Positions 20,468 to 36,056 of a stretch of DNA of 64,000 nucleotides are shown piece after piece (the first letter of the stretch is position 1; every line of letters begins with the position of its first letter). The DNA is from Verrucomicrobiota bacterium. Its GTDB lineage: Bacteria > Verrucomicrobiota > Verrucomicrobiia > JADLBR01. The notes under the pieces were generated by a model. That model worked only from the letters and a program-made list of their open reading frames with translations. It had not been told where the DNA came from and ran no database searches. A program made the position numbers and the translations under genes. The DNA lies in assembly GCA_029560585.1 (NCBI GenBank), contig JAKQKQ010000270.1:1-64000 (forward strand), written 5' to 3'.

Positions 20468-21745
20468 TCATGGTGCCCCCAGGCAGATCATCGCGACGAG
20501 CGTGGGCACCAGCGCGGTGAGAAACAGGCGGAGCGGATGGATGCCGTCTGGGCCGAAGCGATCTTGCAGGATTGAGAACGCCGCCGGGTTGGGGGCGTTG
20601 GCGATCACGGTGAGACCGCCCCCGGCTAGTGCGCCCGCGACGAGGGCATATTTGTACGAGTCCGTCGGGTTGTCGAAGAAAGATCCCAGGTACGTCAGCG
20701 CGGCGTTATCGGTGATGGCGGTCAGGCCCGTCGCCCCCAGGAAGACCGTGGCATCGTCCAGGCCCTTCAATATGGGGTTCAGCCACCATGCCTGCAGCCC
20801 GCCGAGCACCACCAGGCCGCCGAGGAAACAGGCCACCAGGAGGCTCTGGCGCAAGGCGAGTTCGCTCTGGTACTCGCGGGTCACCAGCGTGACAGCCATG
20901 AAACAAAGCAGCACGCCCACGAAGACCTTCGGGTGGTGGGCGGTCAAGACGATCAGGGCAAGGGCCAGCAGATGGAGTGCGACGAGCCAGAATGGCGCCG
21001 GGCGCGCGGCGTCCTGCTGGCCGGACTGTTCCGCCGGGGCGAGCGCGCGGAGTTCCGCCGCGTTCACGGCGGACGCAAGCGCCGCGTTGACGGCGCAGGC
21101 CAGCGCGCACCTCCATCCGAAGGTCTCCAACATGAAGGACGTCGTCCAGCCCCATTTGCCGGCGACCATCAGGATCGGTGGGGCCGCGAAGGGCGTGAGC
21201 GCGCCGCCGATCGAGATGTTGACCAAGAGGGCGGCGAGGGTGGTGTACATCATCCGCGGAGAGACGCCCCGCTCGTAATAGCGCCGCTTGAGGAGGAGCG
21301 CGACGATAGTCATGGCGGCGGGCTCGGTGATGAAGCTGCCGAGCAGGGATCCCAGCGAAAGGCAACAGAAGTATATCGCGATCTCGCGCGGCAGCGGCAG
21401 GGCGCGCGCAACCAGCGGAAGGGCGCGGGTGGCGAAATCGATGATCGGCCGCGTGGCGGCGACGGTCATGATCGCGAAGACAAAGAGAGGTTCCGTGAAG
21501 TTCCGCTCCTCGACGTAGCCGATGGCGGCGTGCGCGCCCCCCTGGAGCGCGATGAGGCCGAAAAGGATCACCGCCCAGAAGCCGAAGACGACCTCGACCT
21601 CGCCCAGGAGGTGCAGGAGGTTCGCGGCGACGGATCCCGAAGGGAGACGGTGCGCCAGGCGGAGGAGCCGGCTGCACGAGAAGGTGTGCAGCACCGCCAA
21701 CCCAAAGAGGATGCTGGCGCCGAGTTCGATCGGTGAGGGACTCAT
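20468..21745 (-). CDS. Putative Na+/H+ antiporter (Na_H_antiport_3 family)
   Basis: The 425-residue product has about 11 hydrophobic segments. It matches the putative Na+/H+ antiporter family PF07399, with motifs SFITEPAAMTIVALLL, NISIGGALTPFAAPPILM, LTAITDNAALTYLGS and VIANAPNPAAFSIL. It probably exchanges cations across the inner membrane. It is the last gene of a minus-strand group with the OadG-like and small membrane proteins (gap 61 bases), which suggests a sodium-linked function for all three. Confidence 0.8.
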   Translation of the reverse strand: MSPSPIELGASILFGLAVLHTFSCSRLLRLAHRLPSGSVAANLLHLLGEVEVVFGFWAVILFGLIALQGGAHAAIGYVEERNFTEPLFVFAIMTVAATRPIIDFATRALPLVARALPLPREIAIYFCCLSLGSLLGSFITEPAAMTIVALLLKRRYYERGVSPRMMYTTLAALLVNISIGGALTPFAAPPILMVAGKWGWTTSFMLETFGWRCALACAVNAALASAVNAAELRALAPAEQSGQQDAARPAPFWLVALHLLALALIVLTAHHPKVFVGVLLCFMAVTLVTREYQSELALRQSLLVACFLGGLVVLGGLQAWWLNPILKGLDDATVFLGATGLTAITDNAALTYLGSFFDNPTDSYKYALVAGALAGGGLTVIANAPNPAAFSILQDRFGPDGIHPLRLFLTALVPTLVAMICLGAP

Positions 21746-22675: not shown

Positions 22676-22930
22676 GATGGACCTCCGGATGGATCTTCCA
22701 CACCGGATGGCGGCCCGACCATCCCACTGCCTGCGGCGCACGCGCCTGCGCCGCACCCGTGATTCGCTCCCACGTATGCCACAAACGTCTGGCCGACGCA
22801 AGCCGGTGCATTGGACTTATCTGTGCCTGGGGCGGGGTGCGTTCGGGCTGCGCAAGCGGAACGGCGATCCCCCAGAGGTTCGTGAGACGCCGGGAATCGT
22901 CCATCGGATCCGGCGTGCGACCGATTCCGG

Positions 22931-22958: not shown

Positions 22959-22960
22959 TC

Positions 22961-23043
22961 CGGTGTCGGCAATGGTGTCTGCCGTCCCCATCGGGGAGAA
23001 CCGCACTGACGGAAGTCAGCGCTGATGGCACCTGCATAAGGTG
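22961..23043 (+). promoter_or_regulatory. Fluoride riboswitch (crcB motif), copy 1
   Basis: The sequence fits the crcB motif. Stem CGGC/GCCG (22967-22970 with 22981-22984) closes a loop with AATGGTGTCT. A variable hairpin (CCCC/GGGG) and the conserved GAACCGC follow, then an extended stem (CTGAC 23006-23010 with GTCAG 23015-23019) and the GCTGATGGCACCTGC terminus. The pseudoknot is GGTGTC (22974-22979) with GGCACC (23027-23032). Downstream, AGGTG (23039-23043) can pair with CACCT (23029-23033), which would hide the ribosome site AAGGTGAGG used by the gene at 23054. Fluoride binding would therefore turn translation on. Motif and platform are seen; binding is inferred. Confidence 0.85.
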
Positions 23044-23053
23044 AGGCATATTT

Positions 23054-24499
23054 ATGCGGGTGCTGAAAGGAAAGCGGACCGGTGGACTGCAGGGTTCCCA
23101 AAAACCCATCCTGATCTCCTGCTGGTTTCTATTCTTGGCCGGATGCGCCCATTTCGTGCCGCAACCCATCGCACCCTCGGATAACCTGCGGCGTTTCGAG
23201 GCGCGGTCGCTCTCGGACCCCGGGCTGCGGCAGTACGCGGTGAGGGCCCTCAAGGGCGAATTTCCCGCATGGCCGCCGGTCGCGTGGGATCTGCGAATGC
23301 TGACGCTGGCCGCCCTCTATTTCCATCCGGACATGGAGGCGGCGCGCGCGCGGCTGGCGCTGGCCGAGGCGGGCAAGATCACGGCGGGGCAACGACCCAA
23401 CCCGACGCTGTCGGTCGGGCCCTCGCTGAATAGCACCACCATTTTGCCGAGCCCTTGGCTCGTGACCGCGAGCCTCGATGTCCCGATCGAGACGGCGGGC
23501 AAGCGGGGGCATCGGCTGGCGCAGGCGCGGCACCTGTCGGAGGCCGCGGCGCACGGCGTCGCCACCGCGGCGTGGGGCGTGAGGTCGCGGCTCCGGTCGG
23601 CACTGCTGGAGGCGTGGGCCGCCGAGGAATCAGGGCGATTGCTGGAACAGCAGCTCGCCGCGCAGGACGAGATCGTCAGGCTGATTGAGGGGCGACTGAC
23701 CGCGGGAGCCGCTGCACCCATGGACCTGAGCCGCGAGCGCGTGGCACTGGAAAGAACGCGGATGGATGCCCTGGACGCCCGAAACCGCCGGGCGCAGTCA
23801 ACGGTGCGGCTGGCGGCCGCGCTGGGCGTGCCGACCAAGAAGATGGAGGGCGTGCCCATGTCCTTCGACGCATTCACCCGTCCGCCGCGCGCACTGTCCC
23901 CCGCCGAGGCGCGCCGCCGGGCGCTGCTCAGCCGGGCCGACATCCGGGCCGCGCTGGCAGAGTACGCCGCGACCGAATCGGCGCTGCAGCTTGAGATCGC
24001 CAAGCAGTATCCGGACGTGCACCTGGGTCCCGCGTACGAGTTCGACCAGGGGGACCACAAGTGGGGACTTGGCCTGAACCTCGAGTTGCCGCTGCTCAAC
24101 CGGAACAGGGGCCCGATCGCCGAGGCCGAGGCGCGGAGGCGCGAGGCGGCGGCTAAGTTCAACGGGCTGCAGGCATCGGTGCTCGGCGAAATCGAGGGGT
24201 CCCTGGCCGAGCAGGAAGCGGCACGGCAGAAGGTCGCCGCGGCGGAGAAGCTGGTGTCAGAGCTCGCCAGACAGGAACATTTGGCCAAGGGCAGTTTCGA
24301 GGCGGGCGAGATCTCTCGCGAGGCGGTCGCCGCCGCTGCGGTCGAGCGCACCAGCGCGGCGCTGGCGCAGTTCGAGGCGCGGGTACGGTGGGCGGAGGCG
24401 CAGGGGCGGCTGGAGGCGGCGCTCCAGAGCCCGCTGGACATGCCGCCGCCCGCGGCGCCGCCCTGGCAAGGCAATCAACCGAAAGTCCCATCCCCATGA
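23054..24499 (+). CDS. TolC-like outer-membrane efflux lipoprotein
   Basis: The 481-residue product has a lipoprotein signal with lipobox FLAGC (Cys31). Two outer-membrane efflux protein (OEP) repeats of long amphipathic helices with strong coiled-coil character follow, at about 90-270 and 285-460. It forms the outer-membrane duct of a tripartite exporter with the next two genes. The start is 10 bases after the riboswitch platform, with AAGGTGAGG as ribosome site. The end overlaps the adaptor gene by four bases (ATGA). It resembles CusC/CzcC-type proteins more than drug-efflux TolC, but specificity cannot be read. Confidence 0.87.
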   Translation: MRVLKGKRTGGLQGSQKPILISCWFLFLAGCAHFVPQPIAPSDNLRRFEARSLSDPGLRQYAVRALKGEFPAWPPVAWDLRMLTLAALYFHPDMEAARARLALAEAGKITAGQRPNPTLSVGPSLNSTTILPSPWLVTASLDVPIETAGKRGHRLAQARHLSEAAAHGVATAAWGVRSRLRSALLEAWAAEESGRLLEQQLAAQDEIVRLIEGRLTAGAAAPMDLSRERVALERTRMDALDARNRRAQSTVRLAAALGVPTKKMEGVPMSFDAFTRPPRALSPAEARRRALLSRADIRAALAEYAATESALQLEIAKQYPDVHLGPAYEFDQGDHKWGLGLNLELPLLNRNRGPIAEAEARRREAAAKFNGLQASVLGEIEGSLAEQEAARQKVAAAEKLVSELARQEHLAKGSFEAGEISREAVAAAAVERTSAALAQFEARVRWAEAQGRLEAALQSPLDMPPPAAPPWQGNQPKVPSP

Positions 24500-25488
24500 G
24501 AATCCCAATCGCCATCGCGCTCGCGGCGGCCGGGCTGGCACCGGCCCTTGCCGAGAACGAGATCCAAACCGAGGTCGCCGTCCAAGTCGCCAAGGTCCAG
24601 AGGGCCACGCTGCGCTCCTATGTCATCGCCTACGGCGTGGTCGAGGGCGAGCCGGCCCGCTCGGGGCGACCGGGCGCGGCCGCTCGGTTGGCCCCGCCCG
24701 TGACCGGGCTCGTCACCGAGGTGCTGTGCTCCGAGGGCCAGCGCGCCGAAAAGGGCGCGACGCTATTCCGCCTCGATAGCCGGGTCGTCGAAGTGGCCGT
24801 CGCGGCCGCGAATGTGAACCTGGATCGCCAGCGCCAGCTAATGAAAGTGGAGGGCACGTCGCAGAAGGCGCTGCAAGAGGCCGAACAACAGATGGCTGCC
24901 GCCGAGGCACAGCTGGCGCTGCTCCGGATCGAGGCGCCGTTTTCGGGAACGGTGACCCGGGTGAACGTCCGCCCCGGCGAGGCCGTCGACCCCGGCAAGG
25001 TCTTGGGAGAACTGGTGGACATGGACCGGCTGGTCGTCACCTGCAGCGTGCCCGCGGCAGAGGCGACCGCGGTCGCCGCAGGCCAGAGCGCGGAGATCGG
25101 GATCGCGGGCCACACACCGATCTCGGGCAGCGTCCTATGGGTCACGCCCGGGGTGGACCCGCAGGCGGGCACCGTGCCGGTGCGCGTGGGAATGCCCGCC
25201 GGAGCGGGACTGCAGCCCGGGCAGTTCGCTAGGGTTAGGATCGTGACCGGGCAGCGCGAGGGCGTGCTCGCCGTGCCTCGCGAGTCGGTCTACACGGATC
25301 ACGACGGGCAGAGCACGGTCTCCCTCGTCGAAGGCGACGTGGCGAAACGGCGCGCCGTCAAGGTGGGTTTCCGGGACGGGGATCTGGTCGAGGTCGCTGG
25401 CGAGGGCATCGCCGAGGGCGCGACGGTGGTCACACTGGGGTCCTATGCCCTGCCGAAGGAGACTAGGGTGCGCGTCGGCGGCCGATAA
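24496..25488 (+). CDS. RND efflux periplasmic adaptor (membrane fusion protein)
   Basis: The 330-residue product has a signal peptide (MRIPIAIALAAAGLAPALA). A lipoyl-like half (APPVTGLVTEVLCSEGQRAEKG), a very short helical hairpin at about 100-135, the second lipoyl half (IEAPFSGTVTRVNVRPGEAV) and beta-barrel and membrane-proximal domains follow. This is the HlyD/AcrA architecture that joins RND pump and outer-membrane duct. The ATG overlaps the TolC-like stop. There is no lipobox and no histidine- or methionine-rich metal-binding tail. Confidence 0.88.
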   Translation: MRIPIAIALAAAGLAPALAENEIQTEVAVQVAKVQRATLRSYVIAYGVVEGEPARSGRPGAAARLAPPVTGLVTEVLCSEGQRAEKGATLFRLDSRVVEVAVAAANVNLDRQRQLMKVEGTSQKALQEAEQQMAAAEAQLALLRIEAPFSGTVTRVNVRPGEAVDPGKVLGELVDMDRLVVTCSVPAAEATAVAAGQSAEIGIAGHTPISGSVLWVTPGVDPQAGTVPVRVGMPAGAGLQPGQFARVRIVTGQREGVLAVPRESVYTDHDGQSTVSLVEGDVAKRRAVKVGFRDGDLVEVAGEGIAEGATVVTLGSYALPKETRVRVGGR

Positions 25489-25500
25489 GGGCGGGAATAG

Positions 25501-28500
25501 GTGCCAACAGCAGTCTCCAGTATGAAGGCCGAAGAGTTGACCGGGGAAGGTGGATCGGTGATCGGCGGCTTCGCCATCCGGCACCGCCTCGCCATCATCT
25601 TCATCACCCTCGCGGTATGCGCGGGCGGGGTGTACTCCGCGCTCCGCATGCCGTCGTCGGTGTTCCCCGAGACGGAGTTTCCCCGGTGCGTGATCCTGAT
25701 CGACAGCGGCGTGATTCCCGCCGACGAGATGATGGCGACCATCACCCGGCCCATCGAGGAGGCGATGAAGGACATCCCCGGCGTGGTGCAGGTCCGCTCC
25801 GCCACGGGCCGGGGAAGCGCGGAAGTCAACGTGTTCTTCAACTGGCGGGTGGACATGGTCCAGAGCGAGCTCTACGTGCTCAACCGCGTGGCCCAGATCA
25901 AGGCCAGCCTGCCGTCGGAAACCAAGACCACCGTGTGGCGGCTCACCTTCAACGCGTTCCCCATCCTCGGCGTGAGCCTGACCAGCCCGGGGCGCGAGCT
26001 CACCGAACTCTGGGAGACCGCCCGATACGACCTCAAGCCGCGCTTCCTGCGCATCCCCGGCGTTGCGCGAGTGGATCTCGTCGGGGGGCGCGCGCCCGAA
26101 TACCACGTCGTGGTGGACCCGATGAAACTCGCTGCCGCCAACCTCGCGCTGGCCGACGTCACCTCGGCGCTGAACAAGAACAACCTGGTGGCCCCGGCCG
26201 GTTTCCGCACCGAGAACTATACGATCTATCTGGGGCTCGTTGACGGCCGGGTGAAGGGCCGGGAGGACATCGAGGATTTCGTGGTGGCCGTGCGCGACAA
26301 CCACCCCGTGCGCGTCCGGGATTTCGCGCGCGTCGAGCGTGGGCCGGAGCCGGTCTTCAACGTGGTCAACGCCCAGGGCCGCCGCGCGGTGCTGATGAAC
26401 ATCCGCGCGCAGCCGACGGGCAGCAGCATCCTGCAGATCGCCCGCGACCTCAAGGCGCAGCTCGCCGAATTGCGCCGCACGCTGCCCCCGGACATGGAGC
26501 TGTCCTTTTACTATGACCAGTCCCTGCTGGTGAGGGAATCCGTCCGCAGCGTCTGGGAATCCATCATCGTGGGCCTGCTGTTCGCGGTGGTGATCCTCTA
26601 CCTGTTTCTGAAGAACTGGGGCAGCGTGCTGACGGCCGTCGTGGTCATCCCCGTGTGCGTGCTGGCGACCATGGTCGCCATGCTTGCCGCGAAACTCACA
26701 TTCAACCTCATGACGCTCGGCGGGATCGCCGCCGCCATCGGCCTCATCATCGACGACGCCATCGTCGTGGTGGAGGCGATCTACGCCAAGGTGGCCCACG
26801 GCGAGTCTCGCCTTCGGGCAATCCGGTCCGGCCTGGACGAGATCCTGCATCCGCTGGTCGGTTCGACCCTGACGCCAGTGGTGGTCTTCATCCCGCTCGC
26901 GTTCCTGGACGGCCTGCCGGGCGTCTTTTTCCGCTCGCTGGCGCTGACGATGGTGGTGGCACTGCTCACGTCGCTCGTGCTCGCCGTGACGCTCACGCCG
27001 GCCCTGGCGTCGCTGTTCCTGCGCGACCGGGCACACCTAGAGCACGGGCACGAGCCAAAGGCGGAAGAGGGGGGCTTCTTGATGCGCCCTCTGGTCGGGG
27101 CGTTCGAGTCGGTGCTGCGGCGCCTGCTGCGCCGACGCTGGGGCACGCTGCTCGCATGCCTCGCCATCGGCTACGGCGGCTGGTGGCTCTACGGTCGCCT
27201 GGCGACCGGCTTCATGCCCGACATGGACGAGGGCGGATTCGTTATCGACTGCCTCACCCCTTGGGGCACGAGCCTGGAAGAGACCGACCGCATGATGCGG
27301 CAGGGCGAGGCCATCCTGCTCGCGACGCCGGAGGTCGAGGGCTACTCCCGCCGCACGGGCGCACGGCTCGCGCTGGCGGTTGCCGAGCCAAACAAGAGCG
27401 ACTTTCTGGTAAAGCTCCGGCCCAACCGCAGACGCGGCACCGAGGAGGTGAAGCAGGAATTGCGCCGCAAATTCAACGCGGCCCTGCCGGCCGGAGAATG
27501 GGAGTTTCCCGGCATCCTCGGCGACCTGATCGGCGACCTCCTGTGGTCGCCCAAGCCGATCGAGATCAAATTGTTCTCCACCGACACGGCATGGCTGATG
27601 AAGAAAGCGCCGGAGGTCAAGGACGCCCTCGCGAAGGTGGGGGGCGTGGTGGACACGTTCGACGGCCTGAAAATGACCGGCCCGACCATCAGCTTCCGTA
27701 TCCGCCCAATCGACGCGCGGCGCCTGGGGCTCAGCGCCGACGACATAGCTGCCGCAGTCAACACCGCCATGCTGGGCCGCACCGCGTCGTCCGTGCTCGA
27801 GGGAGACCGCGTCGTGGAGATCCGCGTCGTCGCCGAACCGGCCAGCATCGCCCGCCTGGACGCGCTGCGCGAGCTGCCCCTCCGGACAACGTCAGGCGGC
27901 ATCGTGAAGCTCTCGCAGGTTGCTGACATCACGGAGGAGGCCGGACAGCTCGAACTGGCGCGCGAGGACCTGCGGCAGCTGGTCGCCGTCACCGCCAACC
28001 TGGAGAATCGTGACATGGGCAGCGGCATCGCCGAAATCAAGCGGGTCCTAGCCGCGGACAATGGCATCCCGTCGGGCGTGATCGAATTCGGCGGCCTGTT
28101 CCAGCAGCAGCAGGAGAGCTTCCGCAATCTGCTGGCCGTGCTTTTCCTCGGCATCGCCCTGGTCTTCACGGTCCTTCTGCTGGAGTTCCGCTCCTTTCGC
28201 GAGCCGTTCGCCATCCTGTTCGGCAGCGTCCTGGCGCTCACCGGCACGATAGGAGCGCTGTGGCTGACGGGCGTGACGTTGAACATCGTGAGCTTCCTCG
28301 GCGCCATCATCGGCGTGGGCATCGTGGCCAAGAACGGCATCCTCATGCTCGATCTCGTGGACCACCACCTGGCCGAGGGCGCGGGCATCGAGGAGGCTCT
28401 CGTGCGCTCGGGGCGCCGCCGACTCCGGCCCATCCTGATGACCTCGCTGAGCACGGCGCTGGCGATGCTGCCCCTGGCGTGGGGGATCGGGCACGGTGCG

Positions 28501-28647
28501 GACATGCTCCGCCCGCTGGCCATCGGCATCATCGGCGCGCTCTGCATCTCCATGCTGTTCTCCCTGATCGCCACGCCCGTCGTGTACTGCCTGATCATGC
28601 GCCTGCGTGAAAAACCAGCGGTCCGGAGGCTCGCCCCACATGAATGA
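25501..28647 (+). CDS. RND efflux permease (AcrB-like)
   Basis: The 1048-residue product is a full-length inner-membrane RND pump. It has twelve predicted helices, with TM1 at about 25-45 and two large periplasmic loops. The proton-relay aspartates are in GLIIDDAIVVVEA near residue 417, and IGVGIVAKNGILMLDLVDHH lies in TM10-11. The family is the multidrug/HAE-like group rather than a clear heavy-metal CusA type. A GTG at 25501 is used; the ATG at 25522 is also possible. It is 12 bases after the adaptor and 30 bases before crcB, in the same direction under the fluoride switch. Confidence 0.9.
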   Translation: MPTAVSSMKAEELTGEGGSVIGGFAIRHRLAIIFITLAVCAGGVYSALRMPSSVFPETEFPRCVILIDSGVIPADEMMATITRPIEEAMKDIPGVVQVRSATGRGSAEVNVFFNWRVDMVQSELYVLNRVAQIKASLPSETKTTVWRLTFNAFPILGVSLTSPGRELTELWETARYDLKPRFLRIPGVARVDLVGGRAPEYHVVVDPMKLAAANLALADVTSALNKNNLVAPAGFRTENYTIYLGLVDGRVKGREDIEDFVVAVRDNHPVRVRDFARVERGPEPVFNVVNAQGRRAVLMNIRAQPTGSSILQIARDLKAQLAELRRTLPPDMELSFYYDQSLLVRESVRSVWESIIVGLLFAVVILYLFLKNWGSVLTAVVVIPVCVLATMVAMLAAKLTFNLMTLGGIAAAIGLIIDDAIVVVEAIYAKVAHGESRLRAIRSGLDEILHPLVGSTLTPVVVFIPLAFLDGLPGVFFRSLALTMVVALLTSLVLAVTLTPALASLFLRDRAHLEHGHEPKAEEGGFLMRPLVGAFESVLRRLLRRRWGTLLACLAIGYGGWWLYGRLATGFMPDMDEGGFVIDCLTPWGTSLEETDRMMRQGEAILLATPEVEGYSRRTGARLALAVAEPNKSDFLVKLRPNRRRGTEEVKQELRRKFNAALPAGEWEFPGILGDLIGDLLWSPKPIEIKLFSTDTAWLMKKAPEVKDALAKVGGVVDTFDGLKMTGPTISFRIRPIDARRLGLSADDIAAAVNTAMLGRTASSVLEGDRVVEIRVVAEPASIARLDALRELPLRTTSGGIVKLSQVADITEEAGQLELAREDLRQLVAVTANLENRDMGSGIAEIKRVLAADNGIPSGVIEFGGLFQQQQESFRNLLAVLFLGIALVFTVLLLEFRSFREPFAILFGSVLALTGTIGALWLTGVTLNIVSFLGAIIGVGIVAKNGILMLDLVDHHLAEGAGIEEALVRSGRRRLRPILMTSLSTALAMLPLAWGIGHGADMLRPLAIGIIGALCISMLFSLIATPVVYCLIMRLREKPAVRRLAPHE

Positions 28648-28677
28648 GGTTGTAATGTGTCCGATGGAGAAGCACAC

Positions 28678-29106
28678 ATGGGCAGGTTGATGTTAGTCGC
28701 GATCGGGGGCGCCATCGGCACACTCGCCCGGTACGGGGTGAACGGCCTCGTGTCCGAGCATCAGGGAAGACACTTCCCGTGGGCCGTGGTATTCCCACTC
28801 GGCACAGTGATCGTCAATGTCACGGGCTGCTTCGCCATCGGTTTCATCGCCGCGGTCTCCGGCCCCGCGATGGGCCGCGCCTGGCTCAAGCCCGAGTGGC
28901 GGGATTTCCTGATGGTCGGTTTCTGCGGGGGCTACACCACGTTCTCGAGCTACGGGCTGCAGACGCTCAACCTCGCCCGCGACACGGAGTGGCTCTGGGC
29001 CGGGCTCAACATCATCGGATCCAACGTCGTTGGGCTCTTCGCCGTTTATCTTGGCCGCGCTTTCGGCCTCTGGCTACAATCGCAATCCCACGGAGGTTCC
29101 CCATGA
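28678..29106 (+). CDS. crcB: Fluoride-specific ion channel CrcB/FluC
   Basis: The 142-residue product has four transmembrane helices. The Fluc signatures are present: GGAIGTLARYGVNG, GTVIVNVTGCFAIGF with the pore asparagine, and GFCGGYTTFSSYGLQ with the phenylalanine track. Dual-topology dimers of this protein let fluoride leave the cell. The ATG at 28678 follows a GGAGAA ribosome site; a GTG 21 bases earlier is weaker. Its stop overlaps the DUF190 start (ATGA). A single crcB gene in the operon implies a homodimer. Confidence 0.95.
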   Translation: MGRLMLVAIGGAIGTLARYGVNGLVSEHQGRHFPWAVVFPLGTVIVNVTGCFAIGFIAAVSGPAMGRAWLKPEWRDFLMVGFCGGYTTFSSYGLQTLNLARDTEWLWAGLNIIGSNVVGLFAVYLGRAFGLWLQSQSHGGSP

Positions 29107-29447
29107 GACTGGACGGCGAAGGCACGCTGTTGCGCATCTTTATCGGCGAGCTGGACAAGTGGCACCACATGCCCCTCTACGAAGCGATCGTGCTGAGGGC
29201 GCGCGAGCTGGGGCTGGCGGGGGCAACCGTGCTGCGAGGCCCGATGGGCTATGGCGCGCACTCGCGACTGCACACCGCCAAGATCCTTCGGCTCAGCGAG
29301 GACCTGCCGGTGATCATCGAGATCGTGGACAAGGAGGAGAAGATTCAGGCGTTCCTACCGGAGCTGGACAAGATGATCCCCGACGGCATGGTGACGTTGG
29401 AGAAGGTGCGCGTGATGATGTACCGGGGGGGAGAACCCAAGCCGTGA
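29103..29447 (+). CDS. DUF190 family PII-like protein
   Basis: The 114-residue product matches DUF190, a small PII-like ferredoxin-fold family often found next to crcB. Motifs are RIFIGELDKWHHMPLYEAIV, GLAGATVLRGPMGYG and LPVIIEIVDKEEKI. It probably regulates or assists the channel, by analogy with other PII-like proteins and membrane transporters. The four-base overlap with crcB implies coupled translation. No membrane helix is present. Confidence 0.88.
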   Translation: MRLDGEGTLLRIFIGELDKWHHMPLYEAIVLRARELGLAGATVLRGPMGYGAHSRLHTAKILRLSEDLPVIIEIVDKEEKIQAFLPELDKMIPDGMVTLEKVRVMMYRGGEPKP

Positions 29448-29506
29448 GGAGGGGCTACCGGATAAGCGACCACGCGCACTGCAGCGTGCTCATCGTGAAG
29501 GCATGA

Positions 29507-30871
<1,365 letters not shown>

Positions 30872-30911: not shown

Positions 30912-30939
30912 CGTTGCGTTCGACGAACCAGCGGCTAGA
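30912..30939 (+). promoter_or_regulatory. Possible promoter of the second fluoride-switched unit
   Basis: TTGCGT (30912-30917) and TAGATT (30934-30939) are 16 bases apart, a plausible -35/-10 pair. It shares GCGGCTAG (30929-30936) with the sequence before riboswitch copy 1. Confidence 0.5.
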
Positions 30940-30942
30940 TTA

Positions 30943-31012
30943 ACGGGGGGCAATGGAGTTTGCCCGGCCGCGTTTGCGGCGAACCGCCGTCGGGCTGATG
31001 ACTCCTACCGAG
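30943..31012 (+). promoter_or_regulatory. Fluoride riboswitch (crcB motif), copy 2
   Basis: Stem GGGC/GCCC (30946-30949 with 30960-30963) closes the loop AATGGAGTTT. A variable hairpin GCCGC/GCGGC follows, then GAACCGCC and the conserved GGGCTGATGACTCCTAC terminus. The pseudoknot is GGAGT (30953-30957) with ACTCC (30999-31003), a compensated change from copy 1. GAGTC (31008-31012) can form a competing hairpin with GACTC (30998-31002) that breaks the pseudoknot. The downstream ATG at 31036 is 24 bases after this platform. The match to the motif is very good; ligand binding is inferred. Confidence 0.9.
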
Positions 31013-31035
31013 TCAGGTAATACCGGTAGTGAGCC

Positions 31036-31761
31036 ATGAGATCCGATGTTCGGACCAGTGTGCGAGGGGCGGCGTTTCCGTTCGTCTCCCGGGCAAGTCA
31101 GCTTGCGCAATTGCGGCGCCTGCACGCGGGACAGAAGCACGTTCTGATCCTGGGACCGGCGGGCGTCGGCAAGACCGCGTTGGTCTGGCATGTCGCCGCG
31201 TTCTTGCCGCTGATAGTCTGCCCAGAATCAATGAGGCTGACCGAGATATGTGCCTCTCTGGAAAGACAACTCGGCCTCGACACGGAGGACCAGCGATTGC
31301 CCCAGCGCAAGAGGCGGGTGCTTCGCGCCATGGCCGAGCGCAGCCAGGCGGTGGTATTCGATGGGGTCAGCCGGACGACGCCCAGACTGAGTTCGTTTCT
31401 CGAGGCGGCGAGCGAGCGGGTGCCGGTGTGGCTGTGCGCGCGCTCTGACCAGCGCCGCGATATAGGGCACGTCTGGCCCCTCCTGTTCCGATTCGAGCGC
31501 GTCGGTCTCCACCCTTTTCACCTTGCCGACACGCGGGCCCTCATCGATGCCGCCGTCGGGGCGGGCGCCGTGCCGGTTTCATTTCGGGCGGCCGCCGAGC
31601 AATTGCACCACATCTCCGGGGGTATCCCCAGCGCGCTATGCGGGCTGCTGCGCGAACTGGCCACCGGCCACTATGATCCGGGCCGGGCCTTTGAACTCAA
31701 ATTGGCCGACTTGGACCGCCGCATCCACGCGGTCTCCCCAGCGGCTGCGCCGCCGTCATGA
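31036..31761 (+). CDS. AAA/STAND-type ATPase behind a fluoride riboswitch
   Basis: The 241-residue product has a Walker A motif GPAGVGKTALVW near residue 42, and AVVFDGVSRTTP is a likely Walker B (aspartate, but no usual glutamate). The C-terminal part has HHISGGIPSALCGLLREL, which resembles the sensor or winged region of AAA_16/Orc1-like ATPases. It has no membrane helix. The start is at 31036, just after the riboswitch, and the stop overlaps the next gene (ATGA). The family is real but its cellular role is unknown. The position suggests a fluoride-response ATPase, which would be new to me. Confidence 0.75.
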   Translation: MRSDVRTSVRGAAFPFVSRASQLAQLRRLHAGQKHVLILGPAGVGKTALVWHVAAFLPLIVCPESMRLTEICASLERQLGLDTEDQRLPQRKRRVLRAMAERSQAVVFDGVSRTTPRLSSFLEAASERVPVWLCARSDQRRDIGHVWPLLFRFERVGLHPFHLADTRALIDAAVGAGAVPVSFRAAAEQLHHISGGIPSALCGLLRELATGHYDPGRAFELKLADLDRRIHAVSPAAAPPS

Positions 31762-32165
31762 ACGAGAACCACCGGCACCATATTCTGATCACGTTCCGGT
31801 ACATCGACGATCTCCTCGCGGAGGCGCAACGGCTTGTCTCCGCCGCGGATGACGGGTCTTTATTCGAAACATACCTGCGGGATGCGCAGGATGCGGATCG
31901 TCGCACTATCCTGGAACAGATCCGGCGCACGAGAGAGACCATGGGACGCATCCTGAGGGATCTGAAGATCGTGCCGGATCGCCCGGCCTCGGGCTCGCTT
32001 TGGGCGGCCCAGGGATGCCTCACCTTTGCGGCTATCGCGGTGGCGGAACTGGAGCCGGGCCGCATGCGGGGTTACGGATCGTTGTCCGATGAGGACGCGC
32101 GCGTCTTCGAGGTGATCGTGTCAGAATTAGGTAGCGCCCTTCGGCCCACATCGGACCCGACGTGA
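31758..32165 (+). CDS. Small helical protein coupled to the fluoride-switched ATPase
   Basis: The 135-residue product appears mostly helical. Its N-terminus HHILITFRYIDDLLAEAQRL, the middle ILEQIRRTRETMGRILRDL and the end LSDEDARVFEVIVSELGSAL are amphipathic, around a conserved-looking SLWAAQGCLTFAAIAVAELEP. I recognise no catalytic motif. The ATG overlaps the ATPase stop by four bases, so the two are translated together and probably form one complex or pathway. Both are under riboswitch copy 2. Confidence 0.7.
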   Translation: MNENHRHHILITFRYIDDLLAEAQRLVSAADDGSLFETYLRDAQDADRRTILEQIRRTRETMGRILRDLKIVPDRPASGSLWAAQGCLTFAAIAVAELEPGRMRGYGSLSDEDARVFEVIVSELGSALRPTSDPT

Positions 32166-32181: not shown

Positions 32182-32321
32182 GGGGTCACGTCTTTTGATT
32201 TGAGCATTTGGCCTGATCTTCCGATAGGTTCGATATCAGCCATCCGGAACGCGAAGACATGAGCAAGTTCCATGCTGTCGCCGACCCAAACCCATTTGCT
32301 CAGATCAAAAGACGTGACCCC
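32182..32321. mobile_element. MITE-like element with 25-base terminal inverted repeats
   Basis: The left end (32182-32206, starting GGGGTCACGTCTTTTGATTT) and the right end (32297-32321) are inverted copies with one mismatch in 25. The whole unit is 140 bases and encodes nothing. The ends resemble the GGGGTCA(C/G)GTCTT ends associated with REP-associated tyrosine transposases (RAYT, IS200-like). No transposase is in the window. It lies between the ATPase-linked gene and the foreign-looking DUF4838 gene. Confidence 0.7.
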
Positions 32322-32413: not shown

Positions 32414-34657
32414 CTACGGCGATTCGATGAGAACGACGCGGTCCACGAAGATCGCGTCCAGTTCGGGACTGTGCCCGTGAGCGAACCAAAAGTAGGCACC
32501 GGAACCGAAGTCGACAACACCCAGATCAGTCCATCGGAACTTCTTGTCGAATGTGCCGTCCTCGGTCGTGAAATATTTCGGTTGGAGAACCATGCTCTTC
32601 AGCGATTTCTTGCCCCAGGCGTCGTAAACGCCCCACGAGCCAAGCTTGCCCTGTTTGATTGTTCCTTCACAACGTAGTGACGCGAGAAGGCGGTACTTCC
32701 CGCGAACTGGCGGAGTATAGCTGGTATTCCAGTCAACTTTCGTCCCCATGCGAACGCTCTTGCCGTTCCAGCCTGCGGGATCATTCACAACCGTCGCCAC
32801 GTCGCGGATGTTGTTGAATGAAAGGGCGTCGAAAACCACCCACTTGTCCTCTGTGATACCCTTGCAGATTTCCGGCGGATTCTTCTGCGCAACGAATCCT
32901 GCCTTCAGGCCTTCCAAGTACGGTTCGATGCCCTTCTTCTGCGAGATCACCGCTGCCTTCGTCTTGAACCGTTTGCAGAGCTGCGCGAATTCCTCCGCCG
33001 CCTTGAGCGGATCTTTCGGCCCGAGGAACGGCAGCTTCTTCTCTCTCGCGTCGCAGCGGAGCTGATAGTAACGGATCAGCCAAACGTGGTCCACGCCCAT
33101 CTTCGATTTCCGCAGCCGGCGCAACTCGTTGGAACCGGGTCCGTAAACTTTCGTCGCTGTCTCGACCGCCTTGTTCATGATTTCGGTGACTTGATTGAGA
33201 GTCGCCAAGTCAATCCATTTGTCCGAGGTGACGCGGAAACACCCCAGATAAATCTTCTCGTTCTCTGCCCGAGAGATGAGGACATCCCAATACTGTTTCA
33301 GGAGCGGGGCGACCGCTGCGCCGTAATAGCCGCGCAGGAACTCGTCAATCAATCTGTCGGCGTCGAGGTTCGGCTCCCACATGACGCGCATCAGCAGCCA
33401 GTTCTTGAGCTCGCAGAAGTCGTCGCCCTCGCCTTCTTCAAACAGGCCGATGGCGCCGTGCTTGATGAAATAGCGAACGTTCGGGACGAGAACGCGCAGG
33501 TTCGGATGCGGCCCGAGGTAGTCGCTGTAGTTGGTGGTGTAGTCCCAGACGAAGAGGTGCTTGGCCAGTTTGCTCCAGCCTTCCATGTCGGCAGCGAACT
33601 TCTGGTTCTGTTCCCCATCGAGTGGCTGGATGTAGGAGCATTCAATCGTGCAAAGACGAATCAGAACGTTTTCGCGCGGCTTGATTGTTTTGGGCGGCTT
33701 GCGTGTGTACTGATACGCGAGCGATTCGACCAGAACATCCGGAAACTCCTTCTCAACCGCCTCCGCGACCTTGTTGAGCATCGCAATGAGCGTGCCGGCG
33801 TGGCTTTCTTCCGCGTCGTCAATCGCCTTGCACTTTGCGCAGGTACAGAACCCGTGCCAATCGTTCTGGGAAACGTCAATCATCTTTGTGCCGGGATTCT
33901 TGTGCAAAGTTTCCAAAACGTTCTTGGTGAACTCGCGAGTCATCTCTTCGTTGGTCAGGCAAAGTTGTGCGCGTTCGTGTTTGCGTTTGCCGTCAATTTC
34001 CGAATACCAGTCGGGATGAGCGTCAAAATATTTGTCCGGCGGGAGATACTTGTAGAACGAATGGACGAAATTTATGATCCGCACCGCACCGCCGTATTCG
34101 GGGGTTATGGACCCGTTGCCCTTCATACGGGCGGAAAAGACGCACGGCTTGGCGTTCCGATGATACATTTCGCGCGATATCATCCGCGGCGCGTAGGAGA
34201 CGTTCAGGTCGTCGGCGACGACAAGCGTCGGTTTCTTGGGAATGAATGTGTCATCGGGCGCCCACCAGCGGACGCCCACCACGTCCTGCAGGAACGAGTA
34301 GACCGCGTATAGGCAGCCTCGCCTTTCATGTCCGGCGAGAATCAGGTTTCCCCCATCCATCTTGATGATGATCTCGTCGAACTTGTAGTCTTTCTTCGGG
34401 GCCTGCGCCGTATTGCCGACGAAAATCAGCGACCTCCCGCCGGCGGCCGCGTCCCCTTCGGAAATCGTCGGGAAGTCTGCGCCGGTAACCAGCTTCAGGT
34501 GTTCAGCTAGTTCGCGTGCCGCAGTCTTCTCGACCACCGCTGCCTCGGCGGGGACGACAATTCGCCAGCCGGTCGCGCCATCCTTTGCCAACTCGGCAGA
34601 ACACAACCATGTCCGTAAAAGCATCAGGCACAGCACTGGCAGGAGCATCCTCTTCAT
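32414..34657 (-). CDS. Secreted DUF4838 protein (GH67/GH20b-like N-domain), compositionally foreign
   Basis: The 747-residue product has a signal peptide (MKRMLLPVLCLMLLRTWLCS). An N-terminal alpha-glucuronidase/GH20b-like domain follows (ARELAEHLKLVTGADFP, AVYSFLQDVVGVRWW). The DUF4838 domain carries the DVSQNDWHGFCTCAKCKA region, with CxCxxC that may bind metal. The C-terminus is a carbohydrate-binding-like beta domain. It probably acts on an extracellular glycan. Its base composition is far lower in GC than its neighbours: the line 33901-33960 has 29 G/C of 60, against 45 of 60 at 35161-35220. With the MITE alongside, this suggests recent acquisition. Confidence 0.75.
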   Translation of the reverse strand: MKRMLLPVLCLMLLRTWLCSAELAKDGATGWRIVVPAEAAVVEKTAARELAEHLKLVTGADFPTISEGDAAAGGRSLIFVGNTAQAPKKDYKFDEIIIKMDGGNLILAGHERRGCLYAVYSFLQDVVGVRWWAPDDTFIPKKPTLVVADDLNVSYAPRMISREMYHRNAKPCVFSARMKGNGSITPEYGGAVRIINFVHSFYKYLPPDKYFDAHPDWYSEIDGKRKHERAQLCLTNEEMTREFTKNVLETLHKNPGTKMIDVSQNDWHGFCTCAKCKAIDDAEESHAGTLIAMLNKVAEAVEKEFPDVLVESLAYQYTRKPPKTIKPRENVLIRLCTIECSYIQPLDGEQNQKFAADMEGWSKLAKHLFVWDYTTNYSDYLGPHPNLRVLVPNVRYFIKHGAIGLFEEGEGDDFCELKNWLLMRVMWEPNLDADRLIDEFLRGYYGAAVAPLLKQYWDVLISRAENEKIYLGCFRVTSDKWIDLATLNQVTEIMNKAVETATKVYGPGSNELRRLRKSKMGVDHVWLIRYYQLRCDAREKKLPFLGPKDPLKAAEEFAQLCKRFKTKAAVISQKKGIEPYLEGLKAGFVAQKNPPEICKGITEDKWVVFDALSFNNIRDVATVVNDPAGWNGKSVRMGTKVDWNTSYTPPVRGKYRLLASLRCEGTIKQGKLGSWGVYDAWGKKSLKSMVLQPKYFTTEDGTFDKKFRWTDLGVVDFGSGAYFWFAHGHSPELDAIFVDRVVLIESP

Positions 34658-34835: not shown

Positions 34836-36056
34836 ATGAGGCAGAGGGTTCCCGCGCGGTGGCTGAACCGCACCGTGGTCGGAATCGGACTGGCGTCTCT
34901 GTTCAGCGACTGGTCGCACGAGATCGCCACGGTCGCAATGCCCGCGTTCCTGGCCACGATGGGCGTGGCGGCGGCATGGCTCGGCCTGATCGAGGGCGTG
35001 TCCGACGGGCTGTCGAGCTTTGCCAAGATGGCCTCGGGTTATTACACGGACCGATTCCGCCGCCGGAAACCCATCGCCGTGGCGGGCTACGTGGTGACGG
35101 CGCTGGGGACGGCGGCATTCGGGCTTGCGTCAGCGGCGTGGCACGTCCTGCTGGCGCGGTCCGTGGCATGGCTTGGGCGCGGCGTGCGAACACCCGTGCG
35201 CAAGGCCCTGCTGGCCGCTGCCGTAACGCCGGACACTTATGGGCGCGCGTTCGGCTTCGAGCGGATGATGGACACGCTGGGCGCCATCCTCGGGCCGGCG
35301 TCGGCCATGTTTCTGCTTGCCGCATTCGATCACCATTACCCGACCCTGTTCGCATGGACGCTCGTACCCGGCCTGCTCGCCGCCGCGCTCATCGCCCTCG
35401 CCGTTGTGGAGAAAGAGCGGCGGCCGGTGGAGCATATCTCCTTCGGCGACAGCCTGCGGGCGCTGCCGCCGCCGTTCAGAAAATTCCTGCTGGCGGTGGG
35501 ATTATTCGGCGCGGGTGATTTCTCGCACACCTTGCTGATCCTACTCGCCGCGCAGCGGCTCGCCCCGGCACTGGGCGCCGCCGGGGCGGCGAGCATGGCC
35601 GCGGCATTGTACCTGCTGCACAATGCCCTCTATTCCGCGTTTGCCTTCGTCGCGGGATGGCTGGCCGACCGGTTCGATAAGCGCCGCCTGCTGGCGGGAG
35701 GCTATGCGCTCGCAGCCGTCATGGCCCTGGCCATCATCGCGCTGCCGCCGGGCGCGTGGGCGCTGGTGGTCGTGTTCGCGCTGGGAGGAATCTACGTGGC
35801 CATCGAGGAAACGCTGGAGGATTCGCTCTGCGCCGAACTCGTCGACGAGGCGCACCACGGTATGGCATTCGGCGCGCTGGCGACGGTCAACGGTGCGGGC
35901 GATTTCCTGTCGAGCGCAGTGGTCGGACTCCTCTGGACGGTCTCGGGAACCACGGCGGCGTTCGGCTATAGCGCCATCCTGTTTGTGGCTGGCGCGTATC
36001 TGGTCCTGCTCACCAAACCACGATCGGTTTTACAAGTCCCCGCCGATTTGACCTGA
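34836..36056 (+). CDS. Major facilitator superfamily transporter
   Basis: The 406-residue product has twelve predicted helices and MFS signatures: GLIEGVSDGLSSFAKMASGYYTDRFRRRKP after helix 2-3, and a related WLADRFDKRRLLAGG loop after helix 7-8. Such transporters move small solutes using proton gradients; no substrate can be named. GTG/ATG choices exist, and the ATG at 34836 is used. It lies downstream of, but not obviously linked to, the fluoride region. Confidence 0.82.
   Translation: MRQRVPARWLNRTVVGIGLASLFSDWSHEIATVAMPAFLATMGVAAAWLGLIEGVSDGLSSFAKMASGYYTDRFRRRKPIAVAGYVVTALGTAAFGLASAAWHVLLARSVAWLGRGVRTPVRKALLAAAVTPDTYGRAFGFERMMDTLGAILGPASAMFLLAAFDHHYPTLFAWTLVPGLLAAALIALAVVEKERRPVEHISFGDSLRALPPPFRKFLLAVGLFGAGDFSHTLLILLAAQRLAPALGAAGAASMAAALYLLHNALYSAFAFVAGWLADRFDKRRLLAGGYALAAVMALAIIALPPGAWALVVVFALGGIYVAIEETLEDSLCAELVDEAHHGMAFGALATVNGAGDFLSSAVVGLLWTVSGTTAAFGYSAILFVAGAYLVLLTKPRSVLQVPADLT

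Follow-up and report, generated by a model that had tools for sequence, protein, structure and literature searches.

Bacteria withstand fluoride by exporting it, by keeping pH and ions in balance and by carrying extra copies of inhibited enzymes. In the literature consulted, the genes named as controlled by fluoride riboswitches encode exporters, antiporters, pyrophosphatase, enolase, haloacid dehalogenase-like phosphatases, formate hydrogenlyase, mutS, ion transporters and the universal stress protein (USP) (PMC11139923, PMC5533749). Most bacterial dynamins are encoded as pairs; membrane tethering is known for Cj-DLP1/2, and Bacillus subtilis DynA has been proposed to repair the inner membrane (PMC6104087, PMC8844932). 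In Escherichia coli, the dynamin-like GTPase RdcA together with RdcB switches the cyclase DgcE (PMC6510439).

The locus described here lies in a window of 64,000 nucleotides, by which we mean the whole stretch of DNA that was analysed. It resembles the fluoride-riboswitch regulon: an RF01734 aptamer stands on the locus, crcB, enolase and RND genes in the window match known fluoride operons, and so do the USP, Na+/H+ antiporter and pyrophosphatase genes of relatives (PMC11139923, PMC5533749). It differs in its Orc/STAND-type ATPase and in the dynamin-like GTPases of relatives, which are not among the genes named in the literature consulted. Like the bacterial dynamin pairs (Cj-DLP1/2, LeoABC, DynA, IniA, BDLP), the relatives' DynA and DynB belong to the Dynamin_N family and share a gene run, and the solved structures closest to them are Cj-DLP1/2, IniA and BDLP; unlike those pairs, the module adds an N-terminal helical domain, an ATPase neighbour and fluoride control, and in the window the GTPase is missing. 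The predicted fold of the window ATPase is that of the Orc/Cdc6-STAND ATPases (TnsC, MuB, Orc1, CED-4, NLRs), but the protein has 241 residues, lacks a winged-helix, DNA-binding or sensor domain and has no transposon or cell-death context. RdcA/RdcB is likewise a dynamin-like GTPase and its small partner (PMC6510439), but has no ATPase or fluoride link; the likeness drawn is one of function. A literature search, with most subscription papers outside its reach, returned no paper pairing 'fluoride riboswitch' with 'dynamin'; an ATPase/dynamin fluoride module is thus apparently undescribed, and its priority is not proved.

We read the window locus as a reduced copy of such a fluoride-induced module, with a probability of roughly 0.55. 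The best reading is of a rare, seemingly undescribed module that has decayed in the window genome, which appears from its sequence to keep only the ATPase and the first ~130 residues of DynA. The relevant features of the window are as follows.

22959-23041, + strand, first fluoride aptamer, heading TolC-MFP-RND-crcB-DUF190-enolase (Rfam, 35.0 bits; gene order)
28657-29106, + strand, CrcB/Fluc fluoride channel (PF02537, E 7e-30)
29130-29447, + strand, DUF190 protein (PF02641, E 1e-42)
29459-29503, + strand, C-terminal remnant of a USP gene, between DUF190 and enolase (tblastn, E 8e-6)
29561-30871, + strand, enolase, upstream neighbour of the ATPase as in loci L068 and L078 (PF00113, E 1e-120)
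30940-31014, + strand, fluoride riboswitch aptamer (crcB motif, RF01734; Rfam, 50.7 bits, E 4e-11)
30998-31037, + strand, predicted expression platform, a hairpin of the aptamer 3' strand (AUGACUCCUACCG) with CGGUAGUGAGCCAU covering the ATPase start codon (folding)
31036-31761, + strand, small P-loop ATPase with a predicted Orc/Cdc6-STAND type core and helical lid (AAA_16, AlphaFold2, Foldseek, alignment)
31758-32165, + strand, 135-residue open reading frame, the apparently truncated N-terminal helical domain of the dynamin-like GTPase DynA (homology to L078 DynA)
32182-32321, strand not assigned, short inverted-repeat element behind the truncated gene (arms 32182-32206 and 32297-32321, 96% complementary)
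32414-34657, - strand, DUF4838 gene at the place taken in relatives by the remainder of DynA, a phosphoesterase and DynB (PF16126, E 2.6e-100)
34836-36056, + strand, MFS transporter (PF07690)

RF01734 was scanned for at the Rfam gathering score of 34 bits. Two aptamers were found in the 7.06-Mb assembly, both in the window; that at 30940-31014 is the stronger and lies well above the cut-off. The original prediction had placed a strong crcB aptamer at 30943-31012, which is right to within a few bases. The aptamer 3' end is separated by 22 nt from the ATG of the ATPase gene. In the five directly coupled loci a downstream CGGUAGCGAGUC-AUG-like strand, which covers the start codon of the ATPase, could form a hairpin with AUGACUCCUACCG, with energies of -14.9 to -21.8 kcal/mol (five genomes, of which the window hairpin is the weakest); when the downstream part was shuffled 1000 times, 0 to 40 of the shuffled sequences were as stable. 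An expression platform is therefore predicted from a hairpin that overlaps the aptamer 3' strand and is conserved in five genomes. Since this pairing competes with the aptamer fold for GACUCC, translational activation by fluoride is predicted, and the folding suggests that the ATPase is under fluoride-dependent translational ON control.

The ATPase frame encodes 241 residues (AAA_16, E 4e-9) and is joined by a 4-nt overlap (ATGA) to the 135-residue frame, so the AAA-type ATPase at 31036 with an overlapping small protein had been described correctly. Searches of Pfam, NCBIfam and PADLOC gave generic AAA matches only; a PADLOC match to BrxF was weak (best E 0.0015) and this identity was rejected. 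The AlphaFold2 model, computed from 17 aligned rows, predicts the core and the helical lid with confidence (pLDDT 89.4, pTM 0.84), and its Foldseek neighbours are TnsC, MuB, Orc1, CED-4 and plant NLRs (E 3e-7 to MuB; TM 0.72 to TnsC). Residues G40, G43, G45, K46, D109 and R136 are invariant across the 17 rows; alignment and Foldseek thus place a P-loop, a Walker B motif and a sensor-like arginine in an Orc/STAND core. The model stops after the helical lid, with neither a winged helix nor a sensor/effector domain, so the protein is not a STAND ATPase proper; as modelled, it is of Orc/Cdc6-STAND type without these domains.

Relatives of the ATPase were sought by protein similarity, with the riboswitch disregarded. 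A contig search with the single sequence gave none and an alignment was required, which yielded 16 further loci in Verrucomicrobiota and Acidobacteriota (17 with the window); partial matches in genomes G120 and G315 were left out of this count. An aptamer on the same strand lies within 700 nt upstream in 12 of the 17, window included. In five it is 22-27 nt upstream (window, L047, L078, L080, L081), and in seven it is 585-681 nt upstream with one gene between, DUF6062-like in L069 (6249-6848) and L082 and a pyrophosphatase in L087, L088, L089, L093 and L094. It heads the gene run in three more, namely L067, L068 (9.9 kb upstream) and L092, where it was counted although its 31.3 bits fall under the cut-off, which brings the total to 15/17. 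The other two, L040 and L042, are near contig ends or rearranged and could not be judged; L040 has two aptamers on a 6.8-kb contig. Fluoride aptamers are rare in relatives (about 80 in 188 genomes), so the chance that a correctly oriented aptamer falls within 700 nt is estimated to be of the order of 1e-4 or less per locus.

The check proposed with the original prediction, whether an aptamer precedes homologues in other genomes, thus speaks for it. The prediction had also named two outcomes that would speak against it, an aptamer below threshold and homologous ATPase pairs never found with fluoride genes; the window aptamer scores above threshold, and the homologous ATPases do co-occur with such genes, since they sit behind fluoride aptamers, inside fluoride operons. 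The family is sparse: it was found in seven of 384 genomes of the class and, in a phylum sample of 388 genomes, in the window genome only.

The 135-residue protein had no family match in Pfam, NCBIfam or PADLOC, and no significant hit to the short domain came from a sequence search of the PDB. A single-sequence search gave a 30% match in G013, and a profile found homologues in seven genomes. The closest relationship is to the DynA N-terminus of L078 (47% identity, E 6e-42) and to L068 DynA (44%, E 9e-41), as against E 5e-14 or worse for standalone versions of the domain. In relatives, DynA is a dynamin-like GTPase of 670-711 residues with an extra helical N-terminal domain of ~130-150 residues; the short domain forms this N-terminus in L068, L069, L078 and L082 (Verrucomicrobiota) and in L087, L089 and L092 (Acidobacteriota), while in L080 the short domain and the GTPase are in different frames. 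The window frame has no Dynamin_N domain by Pfam and represents a piece of a dynamin gene rather than a dynamin. Its homology to DynA ends at residue 128-133 (~32150), 32 bp short of the inverted repeat, of which one 41-bp partial copy was found elsewhere on the contig. Behind it the expected remainder (the rest of DynA, the phosphoesterase and DynB, as in L078 and L068) is absent, and the fragment is the sole DynA match in the whole assembly (95.7% complete), with no dynamin remaining. Because the homology stops, the remainder is missing and no DynA occurs elsewhere in the assembly, truncation by insertion or replacement is the best reading of the sequence, and the DUF4838 gene would be the insertion or replacement. 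A tree of the short domain lets the window frame group with the fused forms as well as with the standalone ones (AU test p 0.17 and 0.18); by itself the tree is no proof that truncation occurred. The 'coupled small protein' of the original prediction is accurate as a description of the frame, but as a gene it is probably a truncated piece of a larger family. Likewise, the proposal of a new fluoride-response pair is supported for the ATPase, whose homologues stand in fluoride operons with no prior description found, but not for its partner, the DynA N-terminal domain; as a two-gene system the pair is not supported, the rest of the dynamin gene being missing.

The DynA and DynB proteins of relatives carry the GTPase domain (PF00350, E 1e-19 to 1e-25; Dynamin_N of L068 DynA, E 3e-25). 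In the DynA model, of moderate confidence only (pTM 0.52), the GTPase is followed by helices at 391-651 that form a long helical trunk, with Foldseek matches to IniA, BDLP and Cj-DLP. A DynA fusion or a standalone N-terminal domain adjoins the ATPase in ten of the 11 Verrucomicrobiota loci, window counted, and gene runs with DynA occur in the Acidobacteriota loci L087, L089 and L092. In other genomes the commonest partner of the ATPase is DynA, or its N-terminal domain alone, and in many cases a second dynamin joins them; the rest of the set is drawn from enolase, CrcB, DUF190, antiporter, USP and pyrophosphatase. The order in L078 (UBA7542) is USP-enolase-[aptamer]-ATPase-DynA-[aptamer]-phosphoesterase-DynB-...-MFS. 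That in L068 (G307), all on one strand, is [aptamer]-crcB-DUF190-respiratory/hydrogenase-like genes-enolase-ATPase-DynA-phosphoesterase-DynB-MFS, the respiratory/hydrogenase-like genes being named from sequence without a family search. L047 (G100) reads crcB-DUF190-antiporter-USP-[aptamer]-ATPase-short domain-DynB, and L087, with variants in other Acidobacteriota, [aptamer]-enolase-DynA-crcB-DUF190-dynamin-[aptamer]-pyrophosphatase-ATPase. In another genome, G041, a fluoride aptamer lies immediately before DynB (L058). Judged from gene order, the ATPase and dynamin genes constitute one fluoride-linked set.

The flanks of the window locus follow the same plan. The MFS gene closes the module in L068 and L078, where homologues occupy the same position (E 3e-184 and 4e-179), and the USP remnant, with 14/14 residues of RISDHAHCSVLIVK identical, is placed as in the USP-enolase arrangement of L078. 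At L051 (7002-7325) in G041 an aptamer is followed only by a C-terminal remnant of DynA; this second, independent case suggests decay of the module in more than one lineage. The window and L067 lack a dynamin gene nearby, and none is present within the available flank of L093/L094, so the ATPase can occur without a dynamin partner. In L041 and L067 the short domain stands alone, immediately downstream of a CPA2 antiporter.

In the proposed mechanism, fluoride binding would free the start codon and switch on translation of the ATPase, which may then act as a nucleotide-dependent switch or loader docking on the N-terminal domain of DynA. The docked ATPase would control assembly of the DynA/DynB pair, and the dynamins may tether, seal or remodel the inner membrane during HF entry and loss of the proton gradient. 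Membrane sealing during HF stress is our preferred guess because membrane tethering is an activity of bacterial dynamin pairs and membrane repair the proposed role of B. subtilis DynA. The window ATPase may either work through the domain that survives or be a leftover. We regard as possible rather than probable the bolder claim that bacteria from two or more phyla possess a dedicated dynamin machine induced by fluoride, in which an Orc/STAND-type ATPase under its own riboswitch loads or switches a dynamin pair and keeps the membrane sealed against HF. To our knowledge, the triggers of bacterial dynamins are mostly obscure. If the claim is true, they would gain a known inducer, membrane maintenance would join fluoride tolerance beyond export and enzyme replacement, and the locus would be one of the few at which the genome itself directly reveals the signal for an uncharacterised ATPase/GTPase pair.

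That the window ATPase and dynamin piece are functionless relics of a lost module seems somewhat unlikely. The dynamin is truncated with no second copy in the assembly, the USP gene is down to 14 residues and neither the ATPase nor the 135-residue gene was detected in the other genome of the same genus; however, neither frame is interrupted, the ATPase retains its motifs, the aptamer and the start-codon hairpin are preserved, and the short domain occurs standalone in other genomes. The main rival to membrane sealing is a cytosolic regulator, in which the ATPase and dynamin-like GTPase sense nucleotide or fluoride state and switch a partner enzyme or transporter. The RdcA/RdcB precedent, a dynamin-like GTPase and small partner acting on an enzyme (PMC6510439), the STAND-like fold and the short domain placed directly behind a CPA2 antiporter all fit such a regulator, but two full dynamins side by side at several loci fit membrane-tethering pairs better and no target gene is common to all loci, so we consider it unlikely.

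The original prediction had suggested repair, sensing or regulation of a target enzyme; the neighbouring genes speak rather for a dynamin module. A further reading, in which the ATPase would drive the bound fluoride complex out of inhibited metalloenzymes and so restore their activity, draws on the fluoride inhibition of both enolase and pyrophosphatase (PMC11139923), on enolase preceding the ATPase in the window, L068 and L078 and on pyrophosphatase preceding it in six of six Acidobacteriota loci. It is distinctly improbable: neither enzyme was detected beside the ATPase in L080, L081, L069, L082, L047 or L067, DynA or its domain is the more constant partner in Verrucomicrobiota, and the Orc/STAND-like fold carries no activase hallmark that we could see. 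Least probable is anti-phage cargo travelling with a fluoride island, despite the phage resistance conferred by B. subtilis DynA (PMC8844932) and the STAND-like fold; PADLOC gave only weak matches, none better than that to BrxF, and accidental linkage to fluoride is unlikely because the aptamer and start-codon hairpin stand directly on the ATPase.

A TolC-MFP-RND efflux set occupies 23054-28647 of the window (the MFP was named from position and sequence only). It is probably fluoride-controlled, because it is placed between the first fluoride aptamer and crcB. L045 (G015) likewise joins crcB, antiporter, USP, enolase and RND. An nhaA-I RNA (22705-22758, - strand, 55 bits) lies back to back with the first fluoride aptamer (+ strand), so that two ion-related RNA elements share one intergenic stretch, and a putative Na+/H+ antiporter gene (20468-21745; PF07399, E 8e-166) is downstream of the nhaA-I RNA. 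A small zinc-ribbon/HEAT-repeat protein recurs close to the fluoride-linked dynamin genes, in L069 (3953-4360), L082 (476-985), L042 (140-610), L080 (17165-17842) and L089 (8217-8636). In L116 (G307) two crcB-DUF190 pairs stand in tandem beside one fluoride aptamer.
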